The translations under genes were made by a program, and so were the position numbers. Shown here piece by piece: positions 4,606-57,664 of a stretch of 63,900 nt of DNA (positions are counted from its first letter, which is position 1; each line of letters opens with the position of its first letter). Under the pieces are notes generated by a model, which saw nothing but the letters and a program-made list of their open reading frames with translations, was not told the origin of the DNA and ran no database searches. The DNA is from Tepidisphaeraceae bacterium (lineage in GTDB: Bacteria > Planctomycetota > Phycisphaerae > Tepidisphaerales > Tepidisphaeraceae): the NCBI GenBank assembly GCA_035998445.1, contig DASYHQ010000037.1, positions 1-63,900 on the forward strand, written 5' to 3'.

Positions 4606-4702
4606 ACATGTAAAGTGAATGTGTGAGACGGGTTCGGCGGCTAATTCAGCGGCAGCGGAGTCCCGTGCGCACATTTCACCTCACCCTCCACGAGGAACCT
4701 TC

Positions 4703-17236: not shown

Positions 17237-23728
<6,492 letters not shown>

Positions 23729-34792: not shown

Positions 34793-36322
34793 ATGAACAA
34801 GATCACGATCAACGCGGACTTGGGACAGCAGAAGATCTCGCGGCACCTGTACGGCCACTTCGCCGAGCACCTCGGGCGGTGCATCTACGAAGGGCTGTGG
34901 GTGGGCGAAGATTCACCGATCGCCAACACGCGCGGGTTCCGCAACGATGTGGTCGCGGCGCTGAAGCAACTGCGCATTCCCAACCTGCGATGGCCCGGCG
35001 GGTGCTTTGCTGACACGTACCACTGGATGGATGGCATTGGTCCGCACGAGAAGCGGCCGAGCATCGTCAACGTGCACTGGGGCGGCGTCACCGAAAGCAA
35101 CGCCTGCGGCACGCACGAGTTCATGGACCTGTGCGAGCAGCTGTCGCTGCCCGGCGCGCCGTGTGAGCCGTACATCGCCGGTAACGTGGGCAGTGGCACC
35201 GTGCGCGAGATGGCCGAGTGGCTCGAATACATCACCATGCCCGGCGAAAGCCCGATGGCGTCGCTGCGGCGCAGCAACGGGCGCGAGCAGCCCTGGCCGA
35301 TGCGCTTCTGGGGCGTGGGCAACGAGAACTGGGGCTGCGGCGGCAACATGCGCCCGCAGTACTACGCCGACCTGTATCGCCAGTACGCCAGCTACTGCCG
35401 GCACTTCACGCCGCAGGGCAAGCTGTACAAGGTGGCGTGCGGCCTGACCGACGAATGGAACGACATCCTGATGCGCGACGCTGGCCGGTTCATGGATGGG
35501 CTCAGCGTCCACTACTACACCGTGCCCGGCGATTGGGCCAAGAAAGGCTCGGCGACGGATTTCGACACCAACGCCTGGCGTGTGACGATCCAGAAGGCGG
35601 CGAACATTGAGACGTTCATCCGCGGCACGTCGGCCATTATGGACCGTTACGACCCGCAGAAGCGCGTCGGCATCGTGATGGACGAGTGGGGCACTTGGTT
35701 CGACGTCGAACCTGGCACCAACCCCGGCTTTCTGTACCAGCAGAACACGATTCGCGACGCCGTGGTAGCGGGGCTCAGCCTCAATGTGTTCAACAACCAC
35801 GCCGACCGCATGCAGGTGGCCAACATCGCGCAGACCGTGAACGTGATGCAGGCGATGATCCTGACGGAAGGCCGGAAGATGCTGCTCACGCCGACCTATC
35901 ACGTGTTCGAGATGTACAAGGTGCACCAGGACGCGACGCTGCTGCCGACGACCGTACAGGCCGCCGCCGGCTACCTGCCCGCAGCGCGGGTGACCGGAAC
36001 GGCCGGGGCTGGCGGTTATGACATGCTGTCGGCGGTGGCGCAGGTCAGCGCATCGGCATCGCGCGACGAGCAGGGGCGCATCCACGTGTCGTTGTGCAAC
36101 TTACACGAGCAGGACGCCGCGGAGATCGCGATCGACTTTCGCGGCGTGGGCGTCACCAGCGTCCGCGGGCGGGTGTTGACGGCGCCGGCGATGAACGCGT
36201 TGAACACGTTCGACTCGCCGGACGCCGTCAAGCCGACCGCGTTCGATAGCCTGAAGCTCAGCGGGTCGACGATCTCCGGCATGCTGCCGGCGCGCTCGGT
36301 TGCGGTGCTGGAGGTGCGATGA
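34793..36322 (+). CDS. abfA: Alpha-L-arabinofuranosidase, GH51
   Basis: A 509-residue intracellular GH51 enzyme that releases terminal arabinofuranose from arabinan and arabinoxylan oligosaccharides. The N-terminus [24 protein letters not shown] and [14 protein letters not shown] are textbook for the family. The acid/base is Glu178 in [11 protein letters not shown] and the nucleophile is Glu298 in [11 protein letters not shown]. The barrel is closed by a C-terminal beta domain (about 390-509). No signal peptide is seen. It is divergent from the AraC regulator, and its stop overlaps the start of a small Cys-rich protein (ATGA at 36319-36322). Confidence 0.97.
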
Positions 36323-36607: not shown

Positions 36608-37729
36608 TCAGTCGGCGGTCACGTCCCACTGTTTGTGCGGCGCGGCTGCGGACGCCTTCGATTCGTCGGTTGGATGCTTTGCTTTCCACGTCGCGAAGCT
36701 ATCTGCGACGCGCTGTCCCCAGGGGCCGAACCAGCGGTAACCGTCGCGACGCTCTGCCGGCAGTTGGTCGTAATCCTGCAACGCCTGCCCGTCGCGATTG
36801 GCAAAGAGCGGGCGGTTGGTCTTCAGATCGTAAAAGCGTGCCCAGATCGTCGAATTCCGATCATCCACCAGCAATAGGTTCCGCGATCCGCCAGGGTTCT
36901 TGCGCTCTTCCAGACGCTTGCCCTTCACGGCGACGACGGCAAACCATTCCGCCGCCCCGGTGATCGCGGCGCGCATGCGGGCGTCGGGGGCGTCCAGTTC
37001 CATCAGCAGCAATGCCACGCCGGCCCCTTCGAAGCCGCTGAGCGAGGGCAGCTCGTACGCCCGCGCGCCCATCGGTTCAAATGTGTCGGGGTCGTGCTGG
37101 GCGCACCAGCCGGTGGGGCGGCCGTCGATGATGACCTGACAGCGGAGGATGCAGTCGATGCCGCGATCAAACGCGGCCTGCGCGTTGGACCTGCGGCCGG
37201 GGTCGACGAACCCGAATGAATCGGTCGTCGCGACATCGCGCATCAACCGTAGCACCGCGACCATCGCGCCATCGTTGAAGGTGATGTACCGTCCATACCC
37301 CTTCGCGGGCGGTGGGAACCGCTGCGGCCAGCCACCGTTGGCGTACTGAGCTTTCAGGAGGGCGTCCAACCCGCGGTTGAATGCTGTTAGCACGTGCGGG
37401 TCGTGCTTCAGCCGGAGGGACCGCCCGAGCAGGCGCAGTTCGCTGTAGGTTGAGCCGTTGTCGATTGTCGCGACGCCTTTCCAATCGCCGTGCGGCTCGT
37501 TGTCGCTGCGCGCACGGCTGGCGTCATAACCTTTGGCCCATCCACCCGTTGCGATTTGCCATGTGATGATGTTCCCAATCACGCGGCGGCCTTCCTCAGA
37601 CGCCAGCCACGCATCGGAACGGCCGGACAATGCCTGAACCGATATGGCGACAGCCTGTGAATAGGTGATGCAGAGCAAGGCGACCGCAATGCCTAGCAAA
37701 CGCAGGTTTACGCGCAGTTTCAATCTCAT
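36608..37729 (-). CDS. Secreted pectate lyase, PL10 family
   Basis: A 373-residue secreted lyase that cleaves polygalacturonate by beta-elimination. A signal peptide (LRVNLRLLGIAVALLCITYSQAVA) is followed by the (alpha/alpha)3 PL10 catalytic domain: QIATGGWAKGYD, TIDNGSTYSELRLLG, KAQYANGGWPQRFP, YITFNDGAMVAVLRLM, PTGWCAQHDPDTFEPMGARAYELPSLSG in two linked blocks, and YRWFGPWG near the end. The length is normal for the PelA group. It is divergent from the LacI regulator with about 246 bases between. That regulator may control it. Confidence 0.93.
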   Translation of the reverse strand: MRLKLRVNLRLLGIAVALLCITYSQAVAISVQALSGRSDAWLASEEGRRVIGNIITWQIATGGWAKGYDASRARSDNEPHGDWKGVATIDNGSTYSELRLLGRSLRLKHDPHVLTAFNRGLDALLKAQYANGGWPQRFPPPAKGYGRYITFNDGAMVAVLRLMRDVATTDSFGFVDPGRRSNAQAAFDRGIDCILRCQVIIDGRPTGWCAQHDPDTFEPMGARAYELPSLSGFEGAGVALLLMELDAPDARMRAAITGAAEWFAVVAVKGKRLEERKNPGGSRNLLLVDDRNSTIWARFYDLKTNRPLFANRDGQALQDYDQLPAERRDGYRWFGPWGQRVADSFATWKAKHPTDESKASAAAPHKQWDVTAD

Positions 37730-37925
37730 GGGCTGCCTCGCCGTTCAGAAATGAGTTGGCTGCACGATCATAATCTACGGCTGCAACTGAAAGGAAAATT
37801 AGCAGGCGGTGCCTCCATCATTCTTCACGAGGAGGAATTCGGTAGTTTCGTAAGGTTATCGCTGGAATACGTTTAAGGGGATTCAGGCTGTAACATTGCT
37901 GGCGGTCGAGTTTGTGAAAATTTCA

Positions 37926-37954
37926 TTGACCATGCTGCTGCGGCTTTCGATAAT
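37926..37954 (+). promoter_or_regulatory. Sigma-70-type promoter of the LacI regulator gene
   Basis: TTGACC (37926-37931) and GATAAT (37949-37954) are exactly 17 bases apart, 22 bases ahead of the ATG at 37976. The -35 is the same TTGACC seen at 4567. A short leader with AGGA is all that separates it from the coding region. Confidence 0.65.
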
Positions 37955-37975: not shown

Positions 37976-39070
37976 ATGGCATCGATCAACGAAGTAGCCG
38001 CTTTGGCGAAAGTTTCGGTTTCGACGGTTTCGCGGGTGATGAACAATCAACCACGCGTGGCCCCGGAAACCATGCAGGCGGTGCGCGATGCGATGGCCAA
38101 GCTCAACTATGCACCGTCGGAACGACGGCCCGGTCCAAAGCCCCAGCGGAACGGGTCGGGCGCGATGCCGACGATCGGCTTCCTGGTGTTCGGCACGTCG
38201 GAAGCCCGGGCGACGCCGGCGTTTGAAGGGTTGTTGTACGGGGTGTCGCTGGCGGCGTCACAGGCCAACCTGAACCTTGTCTTTAGTCACGTGCCCGATC
38301 CCACCCGCCTGCCGGCACGCATCGCTGAGCAGGGCATCAATGGGGTGCTGTTGCACGGGGCGGCGCCCTCGCAGGCGATCTGCGATCGCCTGAGCCGTCT
38401 GCCGACCGTATGGCTGATGGGCAATCGGCATCGGCCGACCTTTGGGGATAAGGTGATGCCCGACAGTTACGTCGTGGGCGAGGTGGCGGCCCGATACCTG
38501 CTGAAGCGGGGCCATCGCAAGCTGGCATTTCTGAACGTGAACGCAGGTCATTGGCCCTTCAAGGTTTCCGCGCACGCCTTCAACATGACGGCCGCTGAAG
38601 GTGGCGGTGAGGTGCAGGTGGTCGAACGGGCGGTGAGCGAGGAGTCCGGCGCGTACTGGCGCACGCACGACCCGGAGGTGATCCGGTCCGTCGTCCAGCA
38701 ATACCTGGCGCTGCCTGATCGGCCGACCGGCCTGTTCGTGGCCGACGACATGCAGGCGGCTCTATTGCAGCCTGAACTGCAGGCGCAGGGCGTCGTGATC
38801 GGGCCGGGCGGTGTCGAGGTCATTTCCTGCAACGACGAGCAACCCTACCTGGCCGGCCTCGCCCCCAAGCCCGCGACCATCGACATCCAGGTGGCCGCCA
38901 TCGGTCGCAAGGGGGTCGAGCAACTCGTCTGGCGCATGGCCAACCCCGACGCCCCCGAGCGCATCACCTGCATGGTCGAGCCCTCGCTGGTGCCCGCACC
39001 AGCCGCTTCCCCCACCGATCCCACGGCCAAGCATGGTCGTACGCGCTCGGCCATGGCCGGCATGGCCTAA
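37976..39070 (+). CDS. LacI-family transcriptional regulator (divergent from PL10)
   Basis: A 364-residue repressor. The helix-turn-helix lies at about residues 3-24 (INEVAALAKVSVSTVSRVMNN), followed by the hinge (AMAKLNYAPSERRPG) and a periplasmic-binding-type sugar-sensing domain with SVWLMGN-like TVWLMGNRHRPTFGDKVMPDSYVVG and EVISCNDEQPYLAGL. It resembles the other LacI regulator here (43459-44499) over the sensor domain. Divergent placement next to the PL10 gene suggests that lyase as a target. The prepilin gene downstream could also be under its control. Confidence 0.93.
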   Translation: MASINEVAALAKVSVSTVSRVMNNQPRVAPETMQAVRDAMAKLNYAPSERRPGPKPQRNGSGAMPTIGFLVFGTSEARATPAFEGLLYGVSLAASQANLNLVFSHVPDPTRLPARIAEQGINGVLLHGAAPSQAICDRLSRLPTVWLMGNRHRPTFGDKVMPDSYVVGEVAARYLLKRGHRKLAFLNVNAGHWPFKVSAHAFNMTAAEGGGEVQVVERAVSEESGAYWRTHDPEVIRSVVQQYLALPDRPTGLFVADDMQAALLQPELQAQGVVIGPGGVEVISCNDEQPYLAGLAPKPATIDIQVAAIGRKGVEQLVWRMANPDAPERITCMVEPSLVPAPAASPTDPTAKHGRTRSAMAGMA

Positions 39071-39213: not shown

Positions 39214-39600
39214 GTCCTTGGCCCACACAGGGGTTCTGCCCGCCTGCCTTGATGCTCATAACTCATCAAGTTGTGCGATAGTTTCATCTGCGTTCTGTTG
39301 GTGCTATTTCAGGCCCTAAATCTACGATTTAAGCCTATTTTTGGCTATTCGCCAAGCTGGCCTATGTGGGCCTCCGCATGCGGGGAAACCTCTAGATGAA
39401 AATTACCGTGATTATTATCATGAATTTTCATTGCCTCTCATAAAACTTGTGTCATAGTGTAAACGTACGAGAAAGCATGGCGGGCCTTGTGGCCGGAACC
39501 ATGGCTGTCTCTCACATCGAACTCAGGCTGCGGTGGCCGTCGCCACTCGCACTTTGGAACACTCGTTCTGGTCCCCTCTGCGTCTTTTCGGAGGCACGTC
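39214..39600 (+). other. Intergenic region upstream of the prepilin gene
   Basis: About 390 bases with no gene. The AT-rich part from 39290 to 39470 carries the 9-18-9 inverted repeat and promoter listed separately. The rest is a leader of about 135 bases. Confidence 0.5.
39396..39458 (+). promoter_or_regulatory. Inverted repeat plus candidate promoter of the prepilin gene
   Basis: ATGAAAATT (39396-39404) and AATTTTCAT (39423-39431) form perfect 9-bp arms with an 18-base spacer. Directly after, TTGCCT (39431-39436) and CATAGT (39453-39458) with a 16-base spacer make a plausible promoter. A regulator bound to the repeat would sit just upstream of the polymerase. Confidence 0.45.
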
Positions 39601-40503
39601 ATGCGTCAGAAACGAACTGGATTCACGCTGGTCGAACTGCTGGTCGTCATCGGCATCATCGCGTTGTTGATCTCGATCCTGCTCCCGTCGCTGTCCAAGG
39701 CCCGTCATCAGGCGCAGATCGTCGCCTGCTCGTCGAACCTGCGCCAGATCGCCATGGCGTCGATCATGTACGCCGGTGACAACAAGGGATACCTGCCGCA
39801 GCGGCAAGGCGACGGTGATCTGGCAACCCCTTTCGATCGGGCGTCGATGGCGTCGTACGTAACGTTAGGCGGTGGCACCACCGCACCGGCCACCGATCCC
39901 GGTGCGAACATCGGTCGGCTCATCATCACTGGGTACCTCGGGAAGAAGGCCCCGCTTTACGACTTCTACTGGTACGGAGAGTACAAGCCCGTCTACATGG
40001 TTCGTTTCTGCCCGGGACAGGAACCGACGCAGGCCTCAAACCACTGGGCGTTCATGAACAGCACGTACGCCTTCAACCCCCATTGGGCCTTCTACAACGG
40101 TGGCTGGCCCACGGTGACGGCGTACAAGAAGCTCGTCCACATGCCCAAGACCAAGACGCTCGTCATGGATCTGCTGACCGATGTCGGTTCGCTCTCGCAC
40201 CTCCGCAACGGCGTGGCGACGGTTAACCTGGCGTACAGCGACGGTCACGTCTCCTCCGTCACCGATCGCACGTTGGTCAACGCGTTGCGGTCGTTCCCGA
40301 TCGGCGACTTCGAGGAACGCATGGACGACTTCCGCGATCGCCTCGAGACGCTCGCCAACGGTCAGGATCCGAAGCGCACGACGCAGGCACCCGACGGCCG
40401 CGCCCCCAGCAACTCCAGCCCGGGCACCGGTTACTGGCGCTGGCGCCTGTGGCGCAACTACAGCGACATCCCCGGTGGCCACATCTCGGTCAACCAGTAC
40501 TGA
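39601..40503 (+). CDS. Prepilin-type (type II secretion pseudopilin-like) protein with H...DG tail
   Basis: A 300-residue exported protein. It starts [20 protein letters not shown], the class III prepilin leader with the cleavage site before Phe and the conserved Glu five residues on, followed by a long hydrophobic helix ending [12 protein letters not shown]. The C-terminal part carries [18 protein letters not shown], the H...DG signature of planctomycete prepilin-like proteins. GGAGG stands six bases before the ATG at 39601. Such proteins are very numerous in planctomycetes and their role is unknown. It lies between the LacI regulator and GH43 with no assembly genes nearby. Confidence 0.92.
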
Positions 40504-40642: not shown

Positions 40643-41578
40643 ATGTCCAGATCAGCGCCCCTCATCCTCCAACGCGCCGACCCCTTCGTCCTCCGCCACG
40701 TGGACGGCTGGTATTACTTCACCGCGTCCGTACCGGAGTACGACCGCATCGAGCTTCGGCGTGCCCGGTCGATCGCTGCGCTGGCAACGGCAGAGCCGGT
40801 CGTGGTTTGGCGCAAGCACAGCGAAGGAGCGATGGGCGGGTACATCTGGGCGCCCGAACTGCACGTCATCGACGGCCGCTGGTTCGTGTACTTCGCCGCC
40901 GGTCATGCCGAGCGGGCGTTTGAGATCCGCATCTACGCCTTAGCCTGCGACGCGGCCAACCCGCTGGACAGCGCGTGGAGGGAGTGCGGGCAGATTCGCA
41001 CCAGCTGGGAATCGTTCGCGCTCGACGCGACCACGTTCACGCATCGCAACACACGCTACTTGGCTTGGGCGCAGAACGATCCGGCAATCGGGCCGGGCAC
41101 GTCGATCTACCTGGCGGCGATGGACGGGCCGTTGAAGATTGCCGGCCAGCAGGTGGCGATCGCGCGTCCCACGCATGCGTGGGAGCGAATCGGCCATCAC
41201 GTGAACGAAGGGCCTGCGGTGCTGGTGCGCAACGGGCGAGTCTTCATGACCTTCTCCGCCAGCGCGACCGACGCGAACTATTGCATGGGCCTGCTGACGG
41301 CCGCTGAAGATGCCGACCTGCTCGATCCTGCGTCTTGGAAAAAAGTGCCGACGCCGGTGAAGTGCTCATCGGAGGCGGCGGGCGAGTACGGGCCCGGCCA
41401 CAACAGCTTCACGGTTTCAGAAGATGGCCAGACCGATCTGCTGGTCTACCACGCGCGCGACTATCGTGACATTGAAGGCGAACCACTATTCGACCCGAAC
41501 CGGCACACGCGCGTTCAACCGATCATCTGGTCAAAGGATGGCGCGCCGCTGTTCGATGTGCCGCTGGTCGGCCGATAG
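40643..41578 (+). CDS. Glycoside hydrolase family 43 protein
   Basis: A 311-residue five-bladed propeller enzyme with no signal peptide, so it is probably cytoplasmic. The three GH43 acids are in place: Asp13 in QRADPFVLR (general base), Asp128 in SFALDATTF (pKa modulator) and Glu189 in HHVNEGPAV (general acid). The segments YIWAPELHVIDGRWFVYF and GPGHNSFTVSEDG are typical. Activities in the family are mainly arabinofuranosidase, arabinanase and xylosidase. With GH51 and pectin genes nearby, arabinan side-chain trimming is the best guess. Confidence 0.92.
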   Translation: MSRSAPLILQRADPFVLRHVDGWYYFTASVPEYDRIELRRARSIAALATAEPVVVWRKHSEGAMGGYIWAPELHVIDGRWFVYFAAGHAERAFEIRIYALACDAANPLDSAWRECGQIRTSWESFALDATTFTHRNTRYLAWAQNDPAIGPGTSIYLAAMDGPLKIAGQQVAIARPTHAWERIGHHVNEGPAVLVRNGRVFMTFSASATDANYCMGLLTAAEDADLLDPASWKKVPTPVKCSSEAAGEYGPGHNSFTVSEDGQTDLLVYHARDYRDIEGEPLFDPNRHTRVQPIIWSKDGAPLFDVPLVGR

Positions 41579-41597: not shown

Positions 41598-43421
41598 TTA
41601 CAGAACGGCCAGTTCCCACCGGTTGAGTCGCACGTCGCTCGTCCAACCATTACGGCTGCGCGCGATGAACTGCACGGACGCTTCCATCCCCTCGTGGAAG
41701 AACATGCGGTAATGTTGGCCCGCCTTCACCACGTGGCGGACGCGGATGCTGGGTTGGGCGGGTTCGAGTAGTACGTCTGGCTCGACGATGGCATCGATCG
41801 AACTCACGCAATCAATCGCGTCGCGATAGTGGATCAACCGCCGTTCCAAGTCAGCCGTCTGAAGGATCTTCGTCACGCCAGGCCAGACCGCGGGCGCGTC
41901 GTCGGGCGCGTCTATCACTATCGCCTTGTAGTGCATGTCGCCGATGTGGACGCCCTGTTCGTCGACAGTCGCACGGCCGTCGATGATGTCCTGCATGTCC
42001 AAGTAGTTGAAATCGATCTGACGCTCGAAGCACGCCTTGGCGGCGCGCCAGGGCAGGTGATCGGGCCAGCCGAGGATGGCGACGTCGCACTGGTGAACCG
42101 AATCGGTGTTCAGCCAGCACAGGCGGGCGCAGTGGTCGGCCAGCGCGGGGAAATCGCTGTCCCACCATGGGCTGTTGGGCCCAACATCCGGCGGGCGCTC
42201 GTCGCGGCGCGGGCCGCGAACGCTGTAGTAGAACGCGTGCGGGATCAGCTGGTTGACGCCGCGAATGTGGCACCAGTCGGCCAGCCACTTCATCTGCGGG
42301 AAGGTCAGTTCATGGCCGTACGCGCCGCAGAACTCGTTGCTGTTCCGCCGGCGGCCCAAATGGATCATCGCCGACGACGAGCACTTGGCCTGCGTCGATT
42401 GCGGTCCCTCGAGCGCGTTCGCCTCGCCGGGCATCACCCACCGCCACACGAGGTCTTGCCCGGGCACGTGGAAGTACTTCATCAGGCCGATCTCGTCCGG
42501 CTGTGCGGGATGGCCCATGAGGGACACGCCGTGCGCCGCACACCATCGCGACAGCGGGGCGTAGTAGGTCTGTTCCAACCGATGATTCACGGCCCGCGCA
42601 TAGTCGGCGCGATACCGGGCGGCATCCGGCTCGTCATCAAACCAGAGCGCCGGCAAGTGGGGCGCGAAGTCGTAACCCAGATGGGCGTTCACGTGGGCCA
42701 AAATGTCCGACGTGCCGGGACGCACCAGCGCCCGCGGTTCGCGCAGCCGGCCGAGCAAATCGGGCTCGTCGGTGAAGAGGCCGATGATCGTCTTGCCGAA
42801 GTAAGGCCGCAGCGCGTCGTAAAACCGATCGTAGACGAGGCGGATGAAGCACTGCACCGCGGCGGCGTTCAACAGGTCGGCGGCCGGTGGCGTTTCCTCG
42901 GCGGCGTCGCTGTGCGTGCTGGTCGGCGCGTCGTTGAGATAGTGCAGCCCGCGAATGACCGAATCCACCGGCCGATCGATCACGTGCAGCCATCGCCCGT
43001 TCGCGCGGCGCGCCGTCGCGATGTGCGTCTGACCCGCTGACAGCAGCGGCAGCGCAGCGTCGTCAGATTCCGCCGCGCTCAGCCCGCGGCACTGGTAGGC
43101 GGCGTTTGTCGCGACAACCTGCCCGCTGGCCGAGCCGGACGGGTACATGCCCTCGTCGTACAGGACGACGCGCATGTCCAATCGTGCGGCTTCGGCGACG
43201 GCGATCTGCACGAAGTGCAGGAAGCGGTCGCTCATGAACGCGATGTCGCGCGGCAGGCCGACGCGCGGGTGGATCAGGAACCCGTGGACGCCGTGCGCCT
43301 GAAAGTCGCGGATCTGGCGAACGATCTCCTGCTCGTCCAGCGCGTCGTTCCAGAACCAGAAGGGGATCAACGAGAAATCGCGCAGCTCGGTCGGGGGAAC
43401 GAGTGGGAGGCGTGATTTCAT
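41598..43421 (-). CDS. GH106-like glycoside hydrolase (putative alpha-L-rhamnosidase)
   Basis: A 607-residue enzyme with no signal peptide. The N-terminus (FSLIPFWFWNDALDEQEIVRQI, GVHGFLIHPRVGLP, RVVLYDEGMYPSGSASG) and the middle (FTDEPDLLGR, GHELTFPQMKWLADWCHIRGVNQLIPHAFYYS) match the barrel of rhamnosidase-type families such as GH106. It is shorter than characterised GH106 enzymes, so the family call is tentative. It is the last gene of the five-gene rhamnogalacturonan operon, 37 bases after the LacI gene. Release of rhamnose from lyase products fits that place. Confidence 0.68.
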   Translation of the reverse strand: MKSRLPLVPPTELRDFSLIPFWFWNDALDEQEIVRQIRDFQAHGVHGFLIHPRVGLPRDIAFMSDRFLHFVQIAVAEAARLDMRVVLYDEGMYPSGSASGQVVATNAAYQCRGLSAAESDDAALPLLSAGQTHIATARRANGRWLHVIDRPVDSVIRGLHYLNDAPTSTHSDAAEETPPAADLLNAAAVQCFIRLVYDRFYDALRPYFGKTIIGLFTDEPDLLGRLREPRALVRPGTSDILAHVNAHLGYDFAPHLPALWFDDEPDAARYRADYARAVNHRLEQTYYAPLSRWCAAHGVSLMGHPAQPDEIGLMKYFHVPGQDLVWRWVMPGEANALEGPQSTQAKCSSSAMIHLGRRRNSNEFCGAYGHELTFPQMKWLADWCHIRGVNQLIPHAFYYSVRGPRRDERPPDVGPNSPWWDSDFPALADHCARLCWLNTDSVHQCDVAILGWPDHLPWRAAKACFERQIDFNYLDMQDIIDGRATVDEQGVHIGDMHYKAIVIDAPDDAPAVWPGVTKILQTADLERRLIHYRDAIDCVSSIDAIVEPDVLLEPAQPSIRVRHVVKAGQHYRMFFHEGMEASVQFIARSRNGWTSDVRLNRWELAVL

Positions 43422-43458
43422 GGATGTTGATCTCAGGGAACACGAGGCGCATCACGTA

Positions 43459-44499
43459 TCACACCGCCAAGGCGATGCGCGACGGCTCGATTAGCTTCGG
43501 CGCAATCATCACGCGCGTGCGGCCGGCGGAAAAGGGGTTGCGGATCAGGTCGATCAGCAATTCCATGCCGTGCCGCCCGATCGCGGCGGCGTTGATGTCG
43601 ATCGTCGCGGGCCGCATTTGCAGGCCGGCCAGATACTGACGCTCGTTGTTGCACGAGATTACGTCGATCGAACCGTCGGGCCCGAGCGACACGCCCCGCG
43701 CCGTCAGCGCCGCGTCGACGGCTGCCACCAGGCGGTCTTCAGAGATGAAGATGCCGGTGGGGCGCGGCGTCATCGATAGCATCTGGTCGACCAGCTGCGC
43801 CCCGGTGATCGCCAGTTGCGCGGGGCTCCAGGACCCGGCGGCCTCGGGCTCGATCGCGTTCAGCAGGGTGACGCGCATGTCGCGCTCCTTGCATGCCTCT
43901 TCAAACTCAAGAGCGCGAAACTTCAGCGACCAGCCACTGTTCGAGGCCGTCATGCCGACCACCTGGTCATGATTGCGATCGGCGAGATAGTCGGCGGCGA
44001 TGCTGCCGATCGCGGAGTTGTCGGGCATCACCTGGTGGCCCCACAGCGGGCGCTGGCGGTTGCCCATCAGCCAGACGCTCGGCAGGTGTTCGAGCCGGCG
44101 CTGGATCTCGGGCCCCGGCCGGTTACCGCCCAGCAGCAGCCCGTCGACGTCGCCGTTCAGCACGCGCGGTGAGATGTGCGCCAGGTCGGATGCGAAGCTG
44201 AAGATCAGGTCGACGTTCCGCCCGTCGGCCACCTCCGACACGCCACCGATCAACTGTTCGAACGCCGGCGCGGTGGATCGTCCCGAATCGCCGAAGACGA
44301 CGTAGGCGATGAGCAGCGTGCTTGCCGCCGAGCCACCATCGATCCGGTTACGCCGAACGACCGGGCGGAAGTTCAACGTCGCCATCGCCGCGCGCACGTT
44401 CTGTGCCGTGTTGGGAGAGATGCTGGGGTGGTCGTTAACGACGCGCGAAACCGTCGACATCGACACGCCGGCCAGCTCGGCCACTTTCTTCATCGACAT
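43459..44499 (-). CDS. LacI-family transcriptional regulator (in the rhamnogalacturonan operon)
   Basis: A 346-residue repressor. The DNA-binding helices are MKKVAELAGVSMSTVSRVVNDH (about 3-24), with a hinge and a sugar-sensing domain (SVWLMGNRQRPLWGHQVMPDNSAIG, IDVISCNNERQYLAGLQMRP). The ATG at 44499 has AAGGA seven bases upstream; an in-frame start at 44523 is less likely. It is encoded inside the operon between an acetylesterase and the GH106-like gene, so it probably controls its own operon. The sensor domain is similar to the LacI at 37976. Confidence 0.94.
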   Translation of the reverse strand: MSMKKVAELAGVSMSTVSRVVNDHPSISPNTAQNVRAAMATLNFRPVVRRNRIDGGSAASTLLIAYVVFGDSGRSTAPAFEQLIGGVSEVADGRNVDLIFSFASDLAHISPRVLNGDVDGLLLGGNRPGPEIQRRLEHLPSVWLMGNRQRPLWGHQVMPDNSAIGSIAADYLADRNHDQVVGMTASNSGWSLKFRALEFEEACKERDMRVTLLNAIEPEAAGSWSPAQLAITGAQLVDQMLSMTPRPTGIFISEDRLVAAVDAALTARGVSLGPDGSIDVISCNNERQYLAGLQMRPATIDINAAAIGRHGMELLIDLIRNPFSAGRTRVMIAPKLIEPSRIALAV

Positions 44500-44542
44500 A
44501 GGTACATCCTTGGTGCGAGGCAACCGCTTTCGAGCGCGGCCG

Positions 44543-45388
44543 TTATGGTCGTTTCAGGTAGTCCTTCAACGGCAAATCGCCCGCGCGAATGCCTTCGACC
44601 ACGCAGGCGGCGTTTAGCGCGGCGCCGGCGTCGTTCGTGTGCGTGTAGTCGGCCTCGCTGAAGAACCGCTCTTTGATCTCGGTCGGCGTGTGCTGCGAAT
44701 ACTTGGTGACGATCAGGTTGTGCAGATCAATGAACGTCGCGCCGGCGGCCGCGGCCGATTGCTTGGCCCACAGCGCGTAGCTAGTGGGCTCAGCGGTCGG
44801 CGTCGGGCTGACGGCCGGCTTCTCGGGCGTGCCGCGTGGGGCGCGGGGCACGTACGAGCAGACGATCGGGGTCATGCCCTTTTCCTTTGCCTCGTTGATG
44901 TAGGCGCGCATGTACCAGCCGAAGCTGCGCACGACTTCCTTCTTGCCTTCCTTCAGCGTCAGCGTGACCTCCTGGCTTTCATCGCCCACGCCGCGAATCG
45001 TGCCGCGCTCGCGGTTGTCACCGGACAGCGGGGCGGGGTCGTTGTGGCCGAACTGCATCAGCACGAAGTCGCCGGGTTTGCCTTCGCTGAGAATCTGCTC
45101 CCAACGGCCGTCGGTGCGAAACGTTCGGCTCGACCGGCCACCGATCGCGCGGTTGACGACGTTGATGCGCGACTCGTCGAACAGTTCCTTGATCGGGTCG
45201 CCCCAGCCGCGCTGGCCCTTGGTGTTGTTGCGCACCGTGGAGTCGCCGATGATCCAAAGCGTCGGCCGTGCATCCGCGTCTGCCTTGGAATCGGCCGGCG
45301 CTGTGGTGGGGGCGGCCTGGCCGTTCACGTAGGCCGCGAGCGTTGCGGTCAGCAGGACGGCGATGCAGAACGTGTCGAACTTCCACAT
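44543..45388 (-). CDS. Secreted rhamnogalacturonan acetylesterase (SGNH, CE12-type)
   Basis: A 281-residue secreted esterase that removes acetyl groups from rhamnogalacturonan I so lyases can act. After the signal peptide (about 1-24) the catalytic Ser50 sits in WIIGDSTVRN. The other blocks are NRAIGGRSSRTF, LMQFGHNDPAP and the Asp/His pair in ADYTHTNDAGA. The features match RhgT-type enzymes. It lies 39 bases after the two-domain acetylesterase and 43 bases before the LacI gene, within one operon. Confidence 0.92.
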   Translation of the reverse strand: MWKFDTFCIAVLLTATLAAYVNGQAAPTTAPADSKADADARPTLWIIGDSTVRNNTKGQRGWGDPIKELFDESRINVVNRAIGGRSSRTFRTDGRWEQILSEGKPGDFVLMQFGHNDPAPLSGDNRERGTIRGVGDESQEVTLTLKEGKKEVVRSFGWYMRAYINEAKEKGMTPIVCSYVPRAPRGTPEKPAVSPTPTAEPTSYALWAKQSAAAAGATFIDLHNLIVTKYSQHTPTEIKERFFSEADYTHTNDAGAALNAACVVEGIRAGDLPLKDYLKRP

Positions 45389-45427
45389 GTTGAACTCTCC
45401 AATCGGGATGAACGGTTCGGTACAGGC

Positions 45428-46711
45428 TTAGCGTCCTTCTGGAACCTCGGACGATCGGGCGACGCTGGCGGGCAGGTTGAAGGCGTCGACGTCGTCGGGC
45501 TTGGCCGGGTCGAACGGGGTCACGTCGCGTGACAGCTGATCGGCCAGCTTCAGGCCACTGGTGCGAATGCCTTCGACGACGCAGCGTGCCAACTCGTAGC
45601 CGCCGTACGCGCTGAAGTGCGAATCGTCCTTCAGCGGGGCGGACTGGCCGGGAAGCGTGTTGGCGGGGTAATGCAGGAACGCACGCTTCGAGTCCGCCTC
45701 GCCCAGCGTGGTGAAGAGCGTGCCGGACATTTCGTGCAGGTCGATCAGCGTTAGGTTCTGCTCTGCGGCAACGGCCCGCGTGGCGCGCGGGTAGTCGCCG
45801 AGCGAATCCTGCAACTTGCCATCCGACGAGAACCGCCGGCGGTACATGGACGTCACCAGCACCGGTGTTGCGCCCTTTGCTTGGACTTCGCGCACGTAGG
45901 ATTCGAGGTCGGCCTTGAAGCTCGTCATCGCACCGATGCCTTCACCTTTCTCCTTCATGTCGTTGTGACCGAATTGGATGAAGACGTAGTCGCCGGGCCG
46001 CGCGAGGCTGATGATCTTGTCGAAGCGGCGTTGCGCGCGAAAGCTGCGAAGCGCGCGCCCCGACTCGGCATGGTTGGCGACGGCGACGGTGTCGTTGAAG
46101 AACCGCGGCAGCATCTGGCCCCAGCCGACGTAGGGTTCGTCGCGCTGGTCGGCAACGGTGGAGTCGCCGGCGATGTAGATGGTAGTGACGTCGGTCGCGG
46201 GCACGATCTCCACGGTACGCACGGGGGTGACGCTCGGAAGGAACTCGAGCGTGAGCTTGTCGTCCCAGTTCAGCGATCCGCGGTCGCGCTCGCCCAGCCG
46301 GACCTCATCGCCACCACTACCGATTGCCCGACTGCGCACGTTGACCAGGAAGGTTGCCGTGGCAGGTTCGACAGCGGTTGCCTGCGCGCGTTCGACCATC
46401 AGCCGCCGGGTTTCCGCTTTAATGGTCAGGCCGGTGGCTTGGGTTTCGACGAACGTCACGCGCACGCGATAGTTGCCCTCTGTCGGTACGCGCACGGAAA
46501 ACTGGTTGGACGCATCGGGCTCGTAACCATACCCCTCGGCCTCGTCGTAACCTGTGCCCGGCGCGACCTGAACGTAATCGCCGTTCGTCGGGTCACCAGC
46601 GAGCTGAAAGCGCATCGGCGCCGCAGCTGCCACGGAAGCTGCTGAGCAGGCGGAGATGCCAATGCTTGTCATGATCATCATTGTGAGATTGGGCAGCGAG
46701 GTACGGATCAA
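45428..46711 (-). CDS. Secreted two-domain rhamnogalacturonan acetylesterase
   Basis: A 427-residue protein. I place the start at TTG 46711, which has GAGGGAG six bases upstream and gives a proper signal peptide; an in-frame GTG at 46738 would overlap the preceding gene and add nine residues before it. An N-terminal beta domain (about 32-165, FQLAGDPTNGDYVQVAPGTGY and FSVRVPTEGNYRVRVTF) is likely for carbohydrate binding. The SGNH esterase follows: Ser184 in YIAGDSTVADQ, ESGRALRSF, FIQFGHNDMKEKG and DDSHFSAYGG. It follows the PL11 gene after 16 bases. Confidence 0.9.
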   Translation of the reverse strand: MIRTSLPNLTMMIMTSIGISACSAASVAAAAPMRFQLAGDPTNGDYVQVAPGTGYDEAEGYGYEPDASNQFSVRVPTEGNYRVRVTFVETQATGLTIKAETRRLMVERAQATAVEPATATFLVNVRSRAIGSGGDEVRLGERDRGSLNWDDKLTLEFLPSVTPVRTVEIVPATDVTTIYIAGDSTVADQRDEPYVGWGQMLPRFFNDTVAVANHAESGRALRSFRAQRRFDKIISLARPGDYVFIQFGHNDMKEKGEGIGAMTSFKADLESYVREVQAKGATPVLVTSMYRRRFSSDGKLQDSLGDYPRATRAVAAEQNLTLIDLHEMSGTLFTTLGEADSKRAFLHYPANTLPGQSAPLKDDSHFSAYGGYELARCVVEGIRTSGLKLADQLSRDVTPFDPAKPDDVDAFNLPASVARSSEVPEGR

Positions 46712-46727
46712 CGGAAGCTCCCTCAAA

Positions 46728-48656
46728 TCAATCAGCACGTGACGACGTCGTACCGGCCGGTTCGGCCACCACGATGGCGGCCTTGGGCTGCTTGCCGGTC
46801 GACATGTCCCAACCCACGTGCGGCGGCTGGTTGTAGCTGACGTTCTGCCACGCGATGGACAGGCGGTACTGCGGGTCGTGCATCAACGTGTAGAACCGGT
46901 GCGACGTTGGGATGGTGGTCGTGTAAATCCGCAGCTCCTTGCCACCGGTGGTCGGCCAGATCACCTCTTCGCGCCAATCGCCGAAAAGGTCGGCCGACAG
47001 GCTGGGGTTGGCCTTGGTGCCGTTGACGCTCGTACACCCCTCTGCAGTGAAGATGCGGTCGGTCGTCTGCGACTGCACGTTCCACTTGCTCACGTGGTTC
47101 CGATCGAGCAGCTCGTCGTAGAGGTCGCCGTCCCAGTAGATGCGGAAGTTGCAGCTGGCGGGCTTTGTCTGTCCGATCTCGTTGCCGTTGGCGTCCCACA
47201 CGCCTTCGATGCCGGCGCCCGCAACCCAGCTTTCGGCGCCGGGGTGGCGCGGGTCGATATCGAACGCGACACCGCGGCCCGGGCCTTCGTTCTTGTCGCC
47301 ACCCGTCTTGGCCTTGGCGACGGAGGGCTTCTTCCACAGCGTCTTGCCGGTCTTCAGCGCGATCATGTGCGCGCCGGCATCGTCGAAGCGTTCTTGAATG
47401 CGGAACATCTCCAGGCCGGGGTTCGACGGCACCAGATCGCCCACGTGCATCGAATCGCCATGGCCGTACGCGGTGGAGAACAGGCCCGTGCCGTCGTCGT
47501 CGATCACGCAGCCGCCGTAGACGATTTCGTCCTTGCCATCGTCGTCGACGTCGACAACCGACAGGTTGTGATTGCCCTGGCCGAAGTACGGGTTGGACGG
47601 ATCGGCGCCCGTGTCGAACAACCATCGTTGAACGAGCTTGCCGTCCTTCAGGTCCCAGGCGCTCAGTGCAGTGCGCTCGTAATAGCCACGGCACATGACG
47701 GCCGAGGGGCGCTTGCCATCCAAATAGGCCACGGTGGCCAGATAGCGTTCGGAGCGGTTGCCGTACGAGTCGCGCCATAGCGCCTTGTACTCGGCCGGGT
47801 CGGGTTGCTCGGGATTGGTGTTCGTGCGGGCGGGAGTGTACTTCACGGTGTCGATCGCGCCGCCGGTGAGCCCATCGAACGCGGTCAGCAGTTCGGGCCC
47901 CGCCAGGATGTGACCGGCCTCGTTGACCCAGTTGGCGTTGGCGTCACCGATGACGTTGCCCTTGCCGTCGGTCGTGCCGTCGGCGGTTTTGCAGATCAAC
48001 TCGGAGCGGCCGTCACCGTCGAAGTCGTAGACGAGGAACTGCGTGTAATGGGCGCCGGCGCGAATGTTGCGGCCAAGGTTGATCGTCCAGAGCAGCGTGC
48101 CGTCGAGCTTGTATGCCTGCAGGATCGGCGGGTCGGTGACGCCGGAGTGCGAGTTGTCCTTCGCTACGCCGCTCTGCATGAGGACGATCTCGTATTGCCC
48201 GTCTCCATCGAGGTCGCCTGCCGACGCATCGCTCGGCAAGTAGCCGTCGATCGACTGCAGCGGCAACGACAGGTACGGCTTGTCCGCCGAATCGATCGAC
48301 AGCGCAGGCGCCGTGGGCGCGTCGGCGATCTCGGCGCCGTTCACCACCGCCCGCACCGTGTACGCCACAGCCGAGCCCGTTGGTGGGGCGGCGTCGATGA
48401 AGTTCGTCACGTCGGTGATCGGCTGGGCGTTCAGGCGCTTCGGCTCGCCCTTGGCATTGGCGCGGTAAACGTTGAAAGCAACCGTGGAATCGTCCGTCCC
48501 CAGCAGCCGCCAACTGAGCCAGACTCGGCCACCTTCCAAGCGAACCACGACCGCACCGCGGTTCAGCCGCTCCATCAGGCGCTCGGCGAGCGCATCGGTG
48601 GTCGCCAAGGCCAGACCTGCGGTTAAAGCGATTGTATATAGATGCTTACGAAACAA
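46728..48656 (-). CDS. Secreted rhamnogalacturonan lyase, PL11
   Basis: A 642-residue secreted lyase that cuts the rhamnogalacturonan I backbone. It starts at TTG 48656 with a perfect GGAGG at 48663-48667, six bases upstream, and has a signal peptide (LYTIALTAGLALATTDALA). The domain follows PL11 enzymes: MERLNRGAVVVRLEGGRVWLSWRLLG in two blocks, repeated calcium loops (DLDGDGQYE, DFDGDGRSE, DVDDDGKDE), DIDPRHPGAESW and ADLFGDWREEVIWPT. It has no LEQR tag and no C-terminal repeats, unlike the PL11 at 4703. First gene of a five-gene operon. Confidence 0.95.
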   Translation of the reverse strand: MFRKHLYTIALTAGLALATTDALAERLMERLNRGAVVVRLEGGRVWLSWRLLGTDDSTVAFNVYRANAKGEPKRLNAQPITDVTNFIDAAPPTGSAVAYTVRAVVNGAEIADAPTAPALSIDSADKPYLSLPLQSIDGYLPSDASAGDLDGDGQYEIVLMQSGVAKDNSHSGVTDPPILQAYKLDGTLLWTINLGRNIRAGAHYTQFLVYDFDGDGRSELICKTADGTTDGKGNVIGDANANWVNEAGHILAGPELLTAFDGLTGGAIDTVKYTPARTNTNPEQPDPAEYKALWRDSYGNRSERYLATVAYLDGKRPSAVMCRGYYERTALSAWDLKDGKLVQRWLFDTGADPSNPYFGQGNHNLSVVDVDDDGKDEIVYGGCVIDDDGTGLFSTAYGHGDSMHVGDLVPSNPGLEMFRIQERFDDAGAHMIALKTGKTLWKKPSVAKAKTGGDKNEGPGRGVAFDIDPRHPGAESWVAGAGIEGVWDANGNEIGQTKPASCNFRIYWDGDLYDELLDRNHVSKWNVQSQTTDRIFTAEGCTSVNGTKANPSLSADLFGDWREEVIWPTTGGKELRIYTTTIPTSHRFYTLMHDPQYRLSIAWQNVSYNQPPHVGWDMSTGKQPKAAIVVAEPAGTTSSRAD

Positions 48657-48724: not shown

Positions 48725-48760
48725 GCAATAATTTATGCAATTTTGAGTGGTAATTATTGC
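48725..48760 (-). promoter_or_regulatory. 9-18-9 inverted repeat upstream of the PL11 operon
   Basis: GCAATAATT (48725-48733) and AATTATTGC (48752-48760) form perfect 9-bp arms with an 18-base spacer in the AT-rich promoter region of the operon. The geometry is the same as the repeat at 39396-39431 though the arms differ. A regulator site is likely. Confidence 0.45.
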
Positions 48761-52047: not shown

Positions 52048-52186
52048 ATCACAAATGTACTATATTAGTCTGCGGCGTGCTATTCCTAGTTGTGAAGGCG
52101 ATGGTAGCCTGTTCACCATAGGGTTATCGCGGTTGGGCAGACGTTCCCGCTCGCGATGGTTCACTCATCCACAAAGGACGCAAAAC

Positions 52187-53722
52187 ATGGCAACCGAGAC
52201 GCTCGAAGAGACCAGCAAGGGCCACGCCGCTCACACGAAGGCCGCCGACTCGCAGGAGGGGCTGCGCGGCAAGTTCACCCGGCCGATCCACGTCACGTTC
52301 TTCGGCGCCGGCTCGGGCTTTTGCCCCACGCTGTGCAAGGACGTGCTGCTGACGCCCGGCGCCGAGCGCGGCGAGTTTCGCCTGGTCGACGTTGACCGCG
52401 AGCGGTTGACCACGATGCACCAGGTGATCGTGAAGCTGGTCGCCGACGCCGGCCGCAGCGATGGTTGGACCGTGCGCTCGACCACCAACCGCCGTGAGGT
52501 GATTCCGGGGACCGACTACGCGATCTGCTGCGTGGAAGTTTCGGGCATGGCCTGCGTGGCGTTCGACAACGACATCCCGCTGAAGTACGGCGTCGACCAG
52601 TGCATCGGCGACACGCTCGGGCCTGGGGGGCTCTTCAAGGGCCTGCGCACCGTGCCGGTCTTCCTCGACATCCTGCGCGATTTGCGCGAGCTGGCGCCGC
52701 AGGCGATCATGCTGAACTACACCAACCCCATGAGCATGCTCGTGCTGGCCGCGGGGCGCGCGGTGCCGGAGATTCCGGTGGTGGGGCTTTGTCATAGCGT
52801 GCAGGGCACCAGTCACCTGCTGGCCAAGTACGCCGAGGTGCCGTACGACGAGATGGAATGGGAATGCGCGGGCGTAAACCACCTGGCGTGGTTCACCAAG
52901 CTGAAGCACAACGGCGAGAATTTGTACACGAAGACGCTGTACGAGAAGTTCGCCAAGCAAATCGAGGAAGGCGTCGCCGAGGCCGAGGCGGGGCTGGCGC
53001 CGTACAAGACCGATGAGAAGTGGCACTGGTCCAAGGACAGCAAGGACAAGACCTGGAAGCAGGGCGATCTGATCCGCAAGGACATGTGCGTGCAGTTCGG
53101 CGCGTTCATCACCGAGTCCAGCGGCCATTTGTCCGAATACCTGCCGTACTACCGCAAGAACGACGAAGGCCGCAAGCTGCTGCGCCTGGGCTACGAGGGT
53201 GGCAGCCGGTTCTACGCCAGCAACTGGCCCGATTGGCGCAAGAACGCCGACGAGAATCGCAACAAGCTCGTCAGCGGCGAGACCAAGACCGAACTGAAGC
53301 GCTCGTGGGAATACGCCAGCTGGATCATCGAGGCGCGCGAGAAGGACACGCCGGTGCGCATCCACGGCAACGTGATGAACAACGCCGAACGCCCCGGCCA
53401 GCGCGGCAGCGGCGAGGGTGGCAAGCTGATCACCAACCTGCCCGGCGACGGCGCGGTGGAAGTGTCGTGCATGGTCGACCGCAACGGCGTCAACCCCACC
53501 CGCTACGGCGCGCTGCCGTCACAGATGGCCCACATCTGCCATAGCCAGATGGCCTACTTTGATTTGGCCGCCACCGCCTGCATCGAACGCAGCAAGGAAG
53601 CGGCCGTCCACGCGCTGCTGCTCGACCCGCTCACGAGCGCGATCCTGAGCCCGCGCGAGATCCGCAAGATGACTTACGAGATGTTCGACGCGGAGAAGGA
53701 ATTCCTGCCGGGGTATAAGTAA
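52187..53722 (+). CDS. GH4 family alpha-glycosidase
   Basis: A 511-residue cytoplasmic GH4 enzyme. GH4 enzymes use NAD and a divalent metal to cleave alpha- or beta-glycosides by an oxidation-elimination route. The nucleotide-binding loop is VTFFGAGSGF. The metal-binding pair is Cys202 in GLCHSVQGT, with Cys227 and His232 in CAGVNHLAWF. It also has NYTNPMSM and the FITESSGHLSEYLPYYRKN segment. AAAGGA lies eight bases before the ATG at 52187. Substrate candidates are alpha-galactosides, alpha-glucosides or alpha-galacturonides. A pectin context favours the last, but this is inference. Confidence 0.93.
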   Translation: MATETLEETSKGHAAHTKAADSQEGLRGKFTRPIHVTFFGAGSGFCPTLCKDVLLTPGAERGEFRLVDVDRERLTTMHQVIVKLVADAGRSDGWTVRSTTNRREVIPGTDYAICCVEVSGMACVAFDNDIPLKYGVDQCIGDTLGPGGLFKGLRTVPVFLDILRDLRELAPQAIMLNYTNPMSMLVLAAGRAVPEIPVVGLCHSVQGTSHLLAKYAEVPYDEMEWECAGVNHLAWFTKLKHNGENLYTKTLYEKFAKQIEEGVAEAEAGLAPYKTDEKWHWSKDSKDKTWKQGDLIRKDMCVQFGAFITESSGHLSEYLPYYRKNDEGRKLLRLGYEGGSRFYASNWPDWRKNADENRNKLVSGETKTELKRSWEYASWIIEAREKDTPVRIHGNVMNNAERPGQRGSGEGGKLITNLPGDGAVEVSCMVDRNGVNPTRYGALPSQMAHICHSQMAYFDLAATACIERSKEAAVHALLLDPLTSAILSPREIRKMTYEMFDAEKEFLPGYK

Positions 53723-53948: not shown

Positions 53949-55844
53949 ATGATTAAAGTCGCAATGATCGGCGCCGGCAGCGTGGTCTTCTCCAAGAACC
54001 TCACCGGCGACATCCTCGGGTTCCCCGAGTTCAAGGATGCCACGTTCAGCTACATGGACATCGATGAAGAGCGCCTGCAGGTGGGCGCCGATCTGTGTCG
54101 CAAGGTGGGCAAGGCGCTGGGGGCCAACCCGAAGATCGAGGCGACCACCGACCGCCGCAAGGCGCTGGAGGGGGCCGACTTCGTCATCAACATGGTGCAG
54201 ATCGGCGGGTTCGATTCGACCTTGGTCGACTTCGAGATTCCCCGCAAGTACGGCCTGAACTTCACGATTGCCGACACCACCGGGCCGGGCGGGTTCTTCC
54301 GGGCGCTGCGCACGTTTCCGATGCTCAAAGGGCTCGTGACAGACATGATGGCCGTTTGCCCAAAGGCCACGCTGTTGAACTACAGCAACCCGATGAGCAT
54401 GAACATGCAGACGATCACGCGCACGAGCGACATCCGTGCGGTCGGTTTGTGCCACAGCGTGCAGGGCACCTACAACCAGCTCATGGGCTACATCAACGAG
54501 AAGCCCGAGGACACGAATTTCATCTGCGCCGGCATCAACCACATGGCCTTCTACCTGAAGATGGAGAAGGACGGCCAAAGCCTCTACCCGCGCCTGTTCG
54601 AGGCGATGAACGACCCCAAGGTCTACAACACCAACAAGGTGCGCTTCGAGATGATGAAGATGCTCGGCCACTTCGTCACCGAAAGCTCGGAGCACAACGC
54701 CGAGTACAGCGCCCACTTCATCCCGCATGGCAAGGACGTGATTCAGAAGTACGACGTGCCGATCGACGAGTACCTGCGCCGCTGCGACGGCATCGTCGAC
54801 GAGTTCGAGCGCATGAAGACGTTCAGCAAGAGCGACGAGCCGATGAACGTGCACCGCAGCCACGAGTACGGCAGCACGATCATCCACAGCATCGTCACCA
54901 ACACGCCCAGCGTGGTCTACGGCAATATGCCCAACAACGGCGCGATCTCGAACTTGCCGCGCAACGCGATCGCGGAAGTGCCGACGCTCGTCGACCGCAG
55001 CGGTCTGCAGTTCACCACGGTGGGCGAGCTGCCGCCGCAATTGGTGGCGTACATGAACCCGCACGTCACGCAGCACGAGCTGTTCATCCGCGCCGCGCTG
55101 GAGGGCCGCCGCGATTACATCTACCAGGCGGCGATGTTCGACCCGCTGACGGCGGCCACCATGCCGATGGACAAGATCCGCGAGCTGTGCGACGAACTGA
55201 TCGCCGCCCACGGCTTCGAAAAAAACGGCGGCTTCCTGCCGGAACTGGACACCGTGAAGACGCTGGTGCCGACCAGCGGCCAGTCGTTCGGCAAGGTGGA
55301 CCCCAAAGTGCTGCGCAAGAGCTGGGACGACACGCAGGCCAAGGCAGGTCAGGATTACATCACCGATTGGCACGTCATCGGCCCGTTCAAGGGAACCGAG
55401 AAGGGCAAGGTCAACCTCGACGTGAAGACGCCGTTCGAGGACGACTTCACCAAGCAACCGGATGCCGCGATCGACCTGAAGGCGGCCTACAAGATCGGCG
55501 ACGCGTCGCTGAAGTGGAAGCCGGTGCAAGCATCTACCAAGAACGGGTTGGTCGACTTGGCCCGGGCGCTGGGCGCGACCGATTACTGCGTCGCCTATGC
55601 GGTGGCCGAGGTCGAGTCGATCCACGCCCGCGAGACCGTGCTTCGCTGCGGCAGCGACGACGGCATCATGATCTGGCTGAACGGCAAAGTCGTGCATTCG
55701 ATGGAGGCCATGCGCGGCTACAGCCCCAACTCCGACGAGGCCCCGATCTACCTCAAGGCCGGCGTCAACCGGATCGTGGTGAAGATCACCAACCTCACCG
55801 CCGGCTGGGGCTTCGGCGTCGCGGTGCCGAAGGCGAACTTCTAG
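53949..55844 (+). CDS. GH4 alpha-galactosidase-like enzyme with extra C-terminal beta domain
   Basis: A 631-residue protein. Residues about 1-450 are a complete GH4 enzyme: MIKVAMIGAGSVVFSKNL, Cys168 in GLCHSVQGTY, Cys193 and His198 in CAGINHMAFY, NYSNPMSM and FVTESSEHNAEY, closest to the alpha-galactosidase (MelA) pattern. Residues about 465-631 form a separate beta-sandwich: ITDWHVIGPFKG, then LRCGSDDGIMIWLNGKVVHS, then LKAGVNRIVVKITNL and WGFGVAV. That kind of domain is usual in secreted planctomycete proteins. No signal peptide is visible. GH4 enzymes are usually about 450 residues, so the fusion is unusual. Confidence 0.9.
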   Translation: MIKVAMIGAGSVVFSKNLTGDILGFPEFKDATFSYMDIDEERLQVGADLCRKVGKALGANPKIEATTDRRKALEGADFVINMVQIGGFDSTLVDFEIPRKYGLNFTIADTTGPGGFFRALRTFPMLKGLVTDMMAVCPKATLLNYSNPMSMNMQTITRTSDIRAVGLCHSVQGTYNQLMGYINEKPEDTNFICAGINHMAFYLKMEKDGQSLYPRLFEAMNDPKVYNTNKVRFEMMKMLGHFVTESSEHNAEYSAHFIPHGKDVIQKYDVPIDEYLRRCDGIVDEFERMKTFSKSDEPMNVHRSHEYGSTIIHSIVTNTPSVVYGNMPNNGAISNLPRNAIAEVPTLVDRSGLQFTTVGELPPQLVAYMNPHVTQHELFIRAALEGRRDYIYQAAMFDPLTAATMPMDKIRELCDELIAAHGFEKNGGFLPELDTVKTLVPTSGQSFGKVDPKVLRKSWDDTQAKAGQDYITDWHVIGPFKGTEKGKVNLDVKTPFEDDFTKQPDAAIDLKAAYKIGDASLKWKPVQASTKNGLVDLARALGATDYCVAYAVAEVESIHARETVLRCGSDDGIMIWLNGKVVHSMEAMRGYSPNSDEAPIYLKAGVNRIVVKITNLTAGWGFGVAVPKANF

Positions 55845-57525: not shown

Positions 57526-57664
57526 CCGTGGCATGGGCGTCTCGCCCATGCTTTTAATGAGGCCATAGGATGTTTTTCATCGCTGCTGCTGGGTCGAAGC
57601 GGTCTGCCCTTAAATGAAGCTTCCCTTTCAATCCACACGCATGGGCGAGACGCCCATGCCACGG
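57526..57664. repeat. Perfect 26-bp inverted repeat with self-complementary arms
   Basis: Arms 57526-57551 and 57639-57664 are perfect complements, with an 87-base spacer. Each arm contains GCATGGGCG-TCT-CGCCCATGC or its complement, itself a perfect 9-bp hairpin. The element can fold as two small hairpins or one large one. Confidence 0.88.

Follow-up and report, generated by a model that had tools for sequence, protein, structure and literature searches.

A putative rhamnogalacturonan I degradation operon in a Tepidisphaeraceae bacterium, with a compact GH106-type enzyme and LacI-type regulators lacking the canonical hinge sequence

The window analyzed here, a 63,900-nucleotide stretch of contig DASYHQ010000037.1 (assembly GCA_035998445.1) from a Tepidisphaeraceae bacterium of the class Phycisphaerae, contains five adjacent minus-strand genes which likely act in the degradation of rhamnogalacturonan I (RG-I). 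In order, these encode a secreted PL11 rhamnogalacturonan lyase (46728-48656), a secreted CE12-type acetylesterase with a YxiM-like N-terminal beta domain (45428-46711), a second secreted CE12 rhamnogalacturonan acetylesterase (44543-45388), the LacI-type regulator LacI_A (43459-44499, start ATG at 44499) and a compact GH106-type enzyme of 607 residues (41598-43421). The genes are separated by 16, 39, 43 and 37 bases, and no minus-strand terminator-like hairpins were found in any of the four intergenic gaps. Both the PL11 gene and the first CE12 gene start with TTG (48656 and 46711) behind a good ribosome-binding site, GGAGG and GAGGGAG, respectively, and the PL11 start is followed by a signal-peptide-like segment. 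At the other end, the GH106-like gene meets a GH43 gene tail to tail with about 20 bases between them. An initial annotation of this DNA had described the same gene order, and its coordinates, strand and gaps were all reproduced. We consider the operon to be real and its role in RG-I degradation likely.

The operon lyase belongs to PL11 beyond doubt. Its Pfam matches to RGL11_C (9.6e-198) and RGI_lyase (7.8e-23) cover both a catalytic domain and an N-terminal beta domain, and phmmer against the PDB returned 4cag (2.9e-189) and YesW (5.2e-181), with YesX likewise among the closest solved relatives. The first esterase matches Pfam GDSL_2 and, across residues 36-349, the YxiM structure 2o14 (3.6e-26), while the second matches the rhamnogalacturonan acetylesterase 1deo (2.2e-22). 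Both have the CE12 motifs GDS(x)T (read as GDST in the first), GHND and DxxH, and their nearest relatives are rhamnogalacturonan acetylesterase and YxiM. Judged by this match, the added beta domain of the first esterase is the domain solved in YxiM and hence an already-known arrangement. The Pfam and PDB matches thus agree with the earlier description of a secreted PL11 lyase, two secreted acetylesterases, one with an N-terminal beta domain, and a LacI regulator.

The last gene of the operon is less easily placed. Its product, in which no signal peptide was seen, scores 27.2 bits against Pfam PF17132, just below the cut-off of 29, so that the wording "GH106-like" in the initial annotation was apt; the short orthologues L122 and L103, which have the same length, exceed the cut-off (39.1 and 39.9 bits). 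A phmmer search with the protein alone found zero PDB relatives, and its own profile found one marginal relative; the PDB match was obtained with a profile mixing short and long GH106 forms. An AlphaFold2 model based on 38 relatives has a mean pLDDT of 89.9, and its best fold matches are the GH106 structures BT_0986 and RHA-P. Foldseek ranks 5mqm at the top (1.8e-21) with GH42 at about 3e-13, and the VIA Z scores are 28.4 for 5mqm (555 of 607 residues), 25.0 for 6q2f and up to 22.4 for GH42. The modeled fold is therefore that of a GH106 catalytic domain, clearly ahead of GH42. Because the alignment to GH106 structures spans the model, the compact form appears to keep the catalytic barrel and the domains that follow it, with about 400 residues of accessory parts missing.

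Residue E363 is invariant across short and long forms and aligns, by profile match, with the catalytic base E593 of BT_0986, and D323 and H304 align with E561 and E538. The general acid E461 and the metal ligands S459/E538/E561 of BT_0986 are not kept; the window protein has D218-E219, H304 and D323. These differences, together with the subthreshold Pfam score and the position of GH42 as the next fold match, could mean that the protein is another GH42-like glycosidase, e.g., for galactose or arabinose side chains. We find this improbable, as the GH106 structures lead in both structural comparisons and the catalytic base and Ram106B-type residues are conserved. Where BT_0986 has its metal ligands and general acid, Ram106B enzymes have D-E, His and Asp, yet they are classed in GH106 (PMC6828813). 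The 607-residue protein shows the same D-E, His, Asp pattern, as compared with the published description, and likewise no signal peptide. For the Ram106B enzymes a cytoplasmic location and an oligosaccharide substrate have been proposed, and those of Thermotoga are active on p-nitrophenyl rhamnoside (pNP-rhamnoside), their natural substrate being unknown (PMC6828813). The predicted activity of the compact enzyme is probably the removal of rhamnose in the cytoplasm.

The distribution of the compact form was analyzed in 298 genomes of the class Phycisphaerae. GH106 proteins fall into two size classes in these genomes: the short form has around 600 residues (42-60% identical), and the usual, long form around 1050 (about 30%). 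Short forms are carried by Planctomycetota, Chloroflexota, Bacteroidota, Verrucomicrobiota, Lentisphaerota and others. To our knowledge, no member of the compact form has been characterised, although it is found across several phyla. PL11 is present in 17 of the 20 Phycisphaerae genomes with the short form. The corresponding figures are 10 of 64 for genomes in which all GH106 proteins are long and 19 of 214 for those that have no form of it. For genomes with and without the short form (17/20 vs 29/278) this gives a Fisher value of 7e-13, with related genomes counted as independent. In G074, G078 and G006, three further genomes, about 20 kb or less separates the short GH106 gene from PL11. In KatS3mg104 (G074, L122), PL11, both CE12 genes, two LacI genes, pseudopilins and short GH106 are found within about 11 kb in a rearranged order; the gene content of the operon thus recurs in this genome in another arrangement. 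Further RG-I neighbors of short GH106 are a PL26-type gene, GH42 and CE12 at L047 and a PL26-type gene at L049. A partial RGL11-like propeller protein lies directly downstream of the short GH106 gene in G078 (L103:11810-13225) and is possibly a lyase-derived binding protein.

These associations bear on whether the compact enzyme is instead a general cytoplasmic alpha-L-rhamnosidase acting on varied rhamnosides (oligosaccharides, glycoconjugates) and placed in this operon by chance, with RG-I as only one source. PL11 was found in none of the Chloroflexota-type short-GH106 carriers that were checked, and because of this the short-GH106 family as a whole is not tied to RG-I. A Caldilineaceae copy adjoins genes for a HAD hydrolase and a branched-chain transporter, and the activity of Thermotoga Ram106B on pNP-rhamnoside (PMC6828813) would also suit a general enzyme. 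Within Phycisphaerae, however, the short form tracks PL11 strongly, and in the tree the RG-I-linked members L103, L047, L049 and L122 form one supported clade. The window protein stands alone on a long branch. On balance, we consider a general rhamnosidase rather unlikely and favor a probable role in RG-I degradation.

The five genes belong to a wider pectin cluster. A second LacI-type regulator, LacI_B (37976-39070, plus strand), is divergently arranged with a PL10 pectate lyase (36608-37729, minus; TIGR02474, 273 bits against a cut-off of 189.8). Also on the plus strand are a GH51-type arabinofuranosidase (34793-36322; Pfam Alpha-L-AF_C, 5e-51), a pseudopilin-like protein (39601-40503; N_methyl and DUF1559-like in a domain scan), the GH43 glycoside hydrolase convergent with the operon (40643-41578; Pfam GH43, 1.6e-62) and two GH4 glycosidases identified by Pfam (52055-53722 and 53949-55844). 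The nearest PDB match of the first GH4 protein is 5c3m, and the LplD alpha-galacturonidase 3fef is third. Since 6-phospho-beta-glucosidase and LplD score in the same range, assignment of the GH4 proteins to galacturonides is not possible. All four families that had been described as surrounding the operon are thus present. A second, divergent PL11 of 1296 residues (4619-8509, plus) matches RGL11_C at 3e-80, split into two stretches; the initial annotation had left it unmentioned, and no PL11 gene beyond these two was found in the genome. The idea of a five-gene unit with its own LacI stands as regards the LacI gene in the operon, but the regulatory unit looks larger, and the cluster has a second PL11, a second LacI and the best operator candidates outside the five genes.

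Both regulators deviate from the canonical LacI design. LacI_A matches Pfam LacI (3.4e-16) and Peripla_BP_3 (5.9e-13), both over the cut-offs, and is a paralogue of LacI_B (41% identity), which has a LacI helix-turn-helix (HTH). Relatives of the pair are found near PL11 in four other genomes (G006, G074, G078 and G109). In the canonical PurR/LacI mechanism, a hinge helix opens the minor groove and a Leu is wedged in at the central CG of the operator. In an alignment with PDB sequences, the PurR hinge segment PSAVARSLK is replaced in LacI_B and its relatives by PSERRPGPKP, PSENRPGPKP, PPARRRGPQP or similar, with ERRPGPKP standing in the place of the hinge helix in LacI_B itself. LacI_A has RPVVRRNRIDGG at this position, a degenerate version of the motif. 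The canonical hinge sequence is thus replaced in both proteins, which otherwise share the HTH and periplasmic-binding-like domains of PurR/RbsR-type regulators. The replacement block in the LacI_B relatives is better conserved than the linker downstream of it. A helix here is argued against by the prolines and glycine of the motif, and the LacI_B model has no helix at residues 43-65, where pLDDT falls below 50 at 48-61 on a shallow alignment. Across LacI-type regulators of Phycisphaerae (37976-39070 and L141-L161), a conserved (R/N)RPGPKP, RRGPQP or RRGRR was observed at the PurR hinge position. The KatS3mg104 orthologue of LacI_B (L122:6921-7950) is broken by a frameshift at about 7720, which may instead be an error of sequencing.

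We infer that this basic Pro/Gly motif resembles an AT-hook. A tentative extension, to which we give less than even odds, is that a Phycisphaerae LacI clade has replaced the hinge helix by an AT-hook-like (R/N)RPGPKP/RRGPQP motif, binds operators with AT-rich centers (TGRWAATTYCA type) and controls pectin clusters. Nothing on a LacI hinge combined with an AT-hook was found in the literature, as covered by open papers.

Candidate operators were sought by expectation-maximisation on upstream regions of LacI relatives from other genomes, the window being excluded from training; the non-redundant training set comprised ten genera, and the motif widths included 13, 14, 18, 20 and 24 bases (W13 to W24). 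The resulting 20-base motif, roughly AATtnGTGnnAATtnCanTG, scores 26.8 bits at the PL10/LacI_B promoter and 20.3 bits at the promoter of the pseudopilin-GH43 unit, with 16.7 bits for the best site elsewhere in the 64 kb. The first candidate (37904-37927, plus), with the core GTGAAAATTTCATTG, ranks first at W20 and second at W24 in the held-out scan. The second (39396-39431) ranks first at W14, W18 and W24 and second at W20, and is a 9-bp inverted repeat with an 18-base spacer. A third, before the PL11 operon (48725-48760), is the 9-bp inverted repeat GCAATAATT-N18-AATTATTGC and has weaker held-out matches of about 10-15 bits. A candidate site is located about 40-70 bases upstream of LacI_B in the window and in L142, L146 and L122. 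As compared to the operators of PurR/RbsR-type regulators, the candidates are AT-rich at the center and have no central CG. The canonical LacI operator TGNAANCGNTTNCA was rejected, having 16 matches in the window where 19.4 are expected. A wide regulon based on TGAAANTTTCA was rejected as well, with 3 sites genome-wide as compared to 2 for the control. A looser pattern, derived partly from the window site, gave one perfect match in the genome (39413) and, with one mismatch, 7 matches vs 13 for the control, i.e., no enrichment.

The lack of genome-wide enrichment also suits the view that the LacI proteins do not act via these sites and that the motif is simply what ordinary AT-rich promoters have in common. 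Its likelihood at W20 (68.1) is below that of the best AT-matched control (69.5), and a few of the 48 control motifs place the three promoters about as high. On the other hand, W13 and W24 are above all AT-matched controls, the held-out W20 scan places two of the promoters at the top, and the site recurs at a similar distance ahead of LacI_B and some of its orthologues. For the first training set, which was redundant, 1 to 7 out of 400 column-permuted matrices performed equally well. We therefore see ordinary promoters as a serious but lesser possibility. Regulation by the two LacI proteins remains our preferred reading, and moderate evidence from these motif comparisons points to an autoregulated local regulon, with weaker evidence for the PL11 operon itself.

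Taken together, our results suggest, with a probability of roughly 70%, an RG-I degradation operon within a larger pectin cluster, regulated by LacI_A and LacI_B and with a cytoplasmic compact GH106 enzyme. Outside the cytoplasm, the two CE12 esterases would deacetylate RG-I and the PL11 lyase would cut its backbone to unsaturated oligosaccharides, as expected from their strong family matches. The oligosaccharides would then enter the cell, where the compact enzyme would take off terminal L-rhamnose. With moderate support, LacI_A and LacI_B are probably repressors of the cluster, relieved when they bind a sugar derived from RG-I, and candidate sites for them lie at the PL11-operon, PL10/LacI_B and pseudopilin-GH43 promoters.

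Several observations weigh against this. Neither RhaA nor UxaC was found in the genome, which does have a rhamnose mutarotase, and GH105 is limited to one weak match on another contig. Among the window genes we recognised no system for the uptake of sugars; the binding proteins of its ABC transporter are of the NMT1 type. For these reasons, a gene order that follows a complete pathway, as initially proposed, is something we can only infer: the secreted lyase and esterases and the cytoplasmic GH106-type enzyme of an RG-I operon stand, and the full pathway is putative. In addition, among the three promoters that of the PL11 operon gives the poorest match (13.4 bits at W20, with three better sites elsewhere), and the W20 motif likelihood does not exceed its best control. 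The compact enzyme is below the Pfam cut-off and does not conserve the general acid position of BT_0986. RG-I neighbors are missing beside most short-GH106 relatives elsewhere, PL11 is missing from the Chloroflexota-type carriers that were checked, and the PL11 co-occurrence counts are uncorrected for phylogeny or genome size.

The system is known in kind, with two unusual parts, i.e., the compact GH106-type enzyme and the LacI-type regulators without canonical hinge sequence. The yes cluster of Bacillus subtilis combines the PL11 lyases YesW and YesX with CE12 esterases, GH42, GH105, a sugar ABC transporter and AraC-type control. The window shares the clustering of PL11 and CE12 for RG-I with regulators, but it has no recognised sugar ABC transporter, GH105 or GH42, and it has LacI-type control and a compact GH106 inside the operon. 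BT_4145 lies in an RG-I locus of Bacteroides thetaiotaomicron. This protein is a GH106 rhamnogalacturonan alpha-L-rhamnohydrolase (PMC6828813), and the window protein weakly matches its NCBIfam model, but has 607 residues and no signal peptide, where the model has 897 positions. As the initial annotation stated, the SusC/SusD pair that marks a Sus-type polysaccharide utilisation locus is absent, here judged from a Pfam scan of the window genes that did not include every small open reading frame. The Ram106B enzymes of Thermotoga, Caldicellulosiruptor and Thermoclostridium (PMC6828813) resemble the window enzyme in the missing signal peptide, the active-site pattern and the kept base Glu, but are about 116-121 kDa, whereas the window enzyme is without roughly 400 accessory-domain residues.

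Among the other features of the window, the second PL11 has as its neighbor a GH39-like protein (9524-12745, minus) whose galactose-binding domain is of the YxiM type. Pseudopilin-like genes (N_methyl, DUF1559-like) recur within pectin clusters (39601-40503 and L122:4423-6595). A DUF6785/DUF6784 protein (60218-62251, minus) has a homologue beside CE12 in L047 (7972-9999), and this family may belong to pectin clusters. A hybrid histidine kinase of 2166 residues with about 12 HAMP domains is encoded at 17228-23728 (plus), and another hybrid kinase follows from 23833. A REP-like short palindrome, CCTCTCCCGG-N4-CCGGGAGAGG, occurs at 31870, 32113, 51108, 55871, 56031 and 62535, mostly between genes, and two 21-base palindromes, GCATGGGCGTCTCGCCCATGC at 57531 and GCATGGGCGAGACGCCCATGC at 57639, are mutual reverse complements 108 bases apart.

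RG-I degradation in Phycisphaerae is little described, and the locus supplies a testable set of enzymes. The compact GH106-type unit may represent the core that rhamnosidase activity requires. If the hinge-less regulators function as suggested here, they would add another mode of DNA recognition to the LacI fold.

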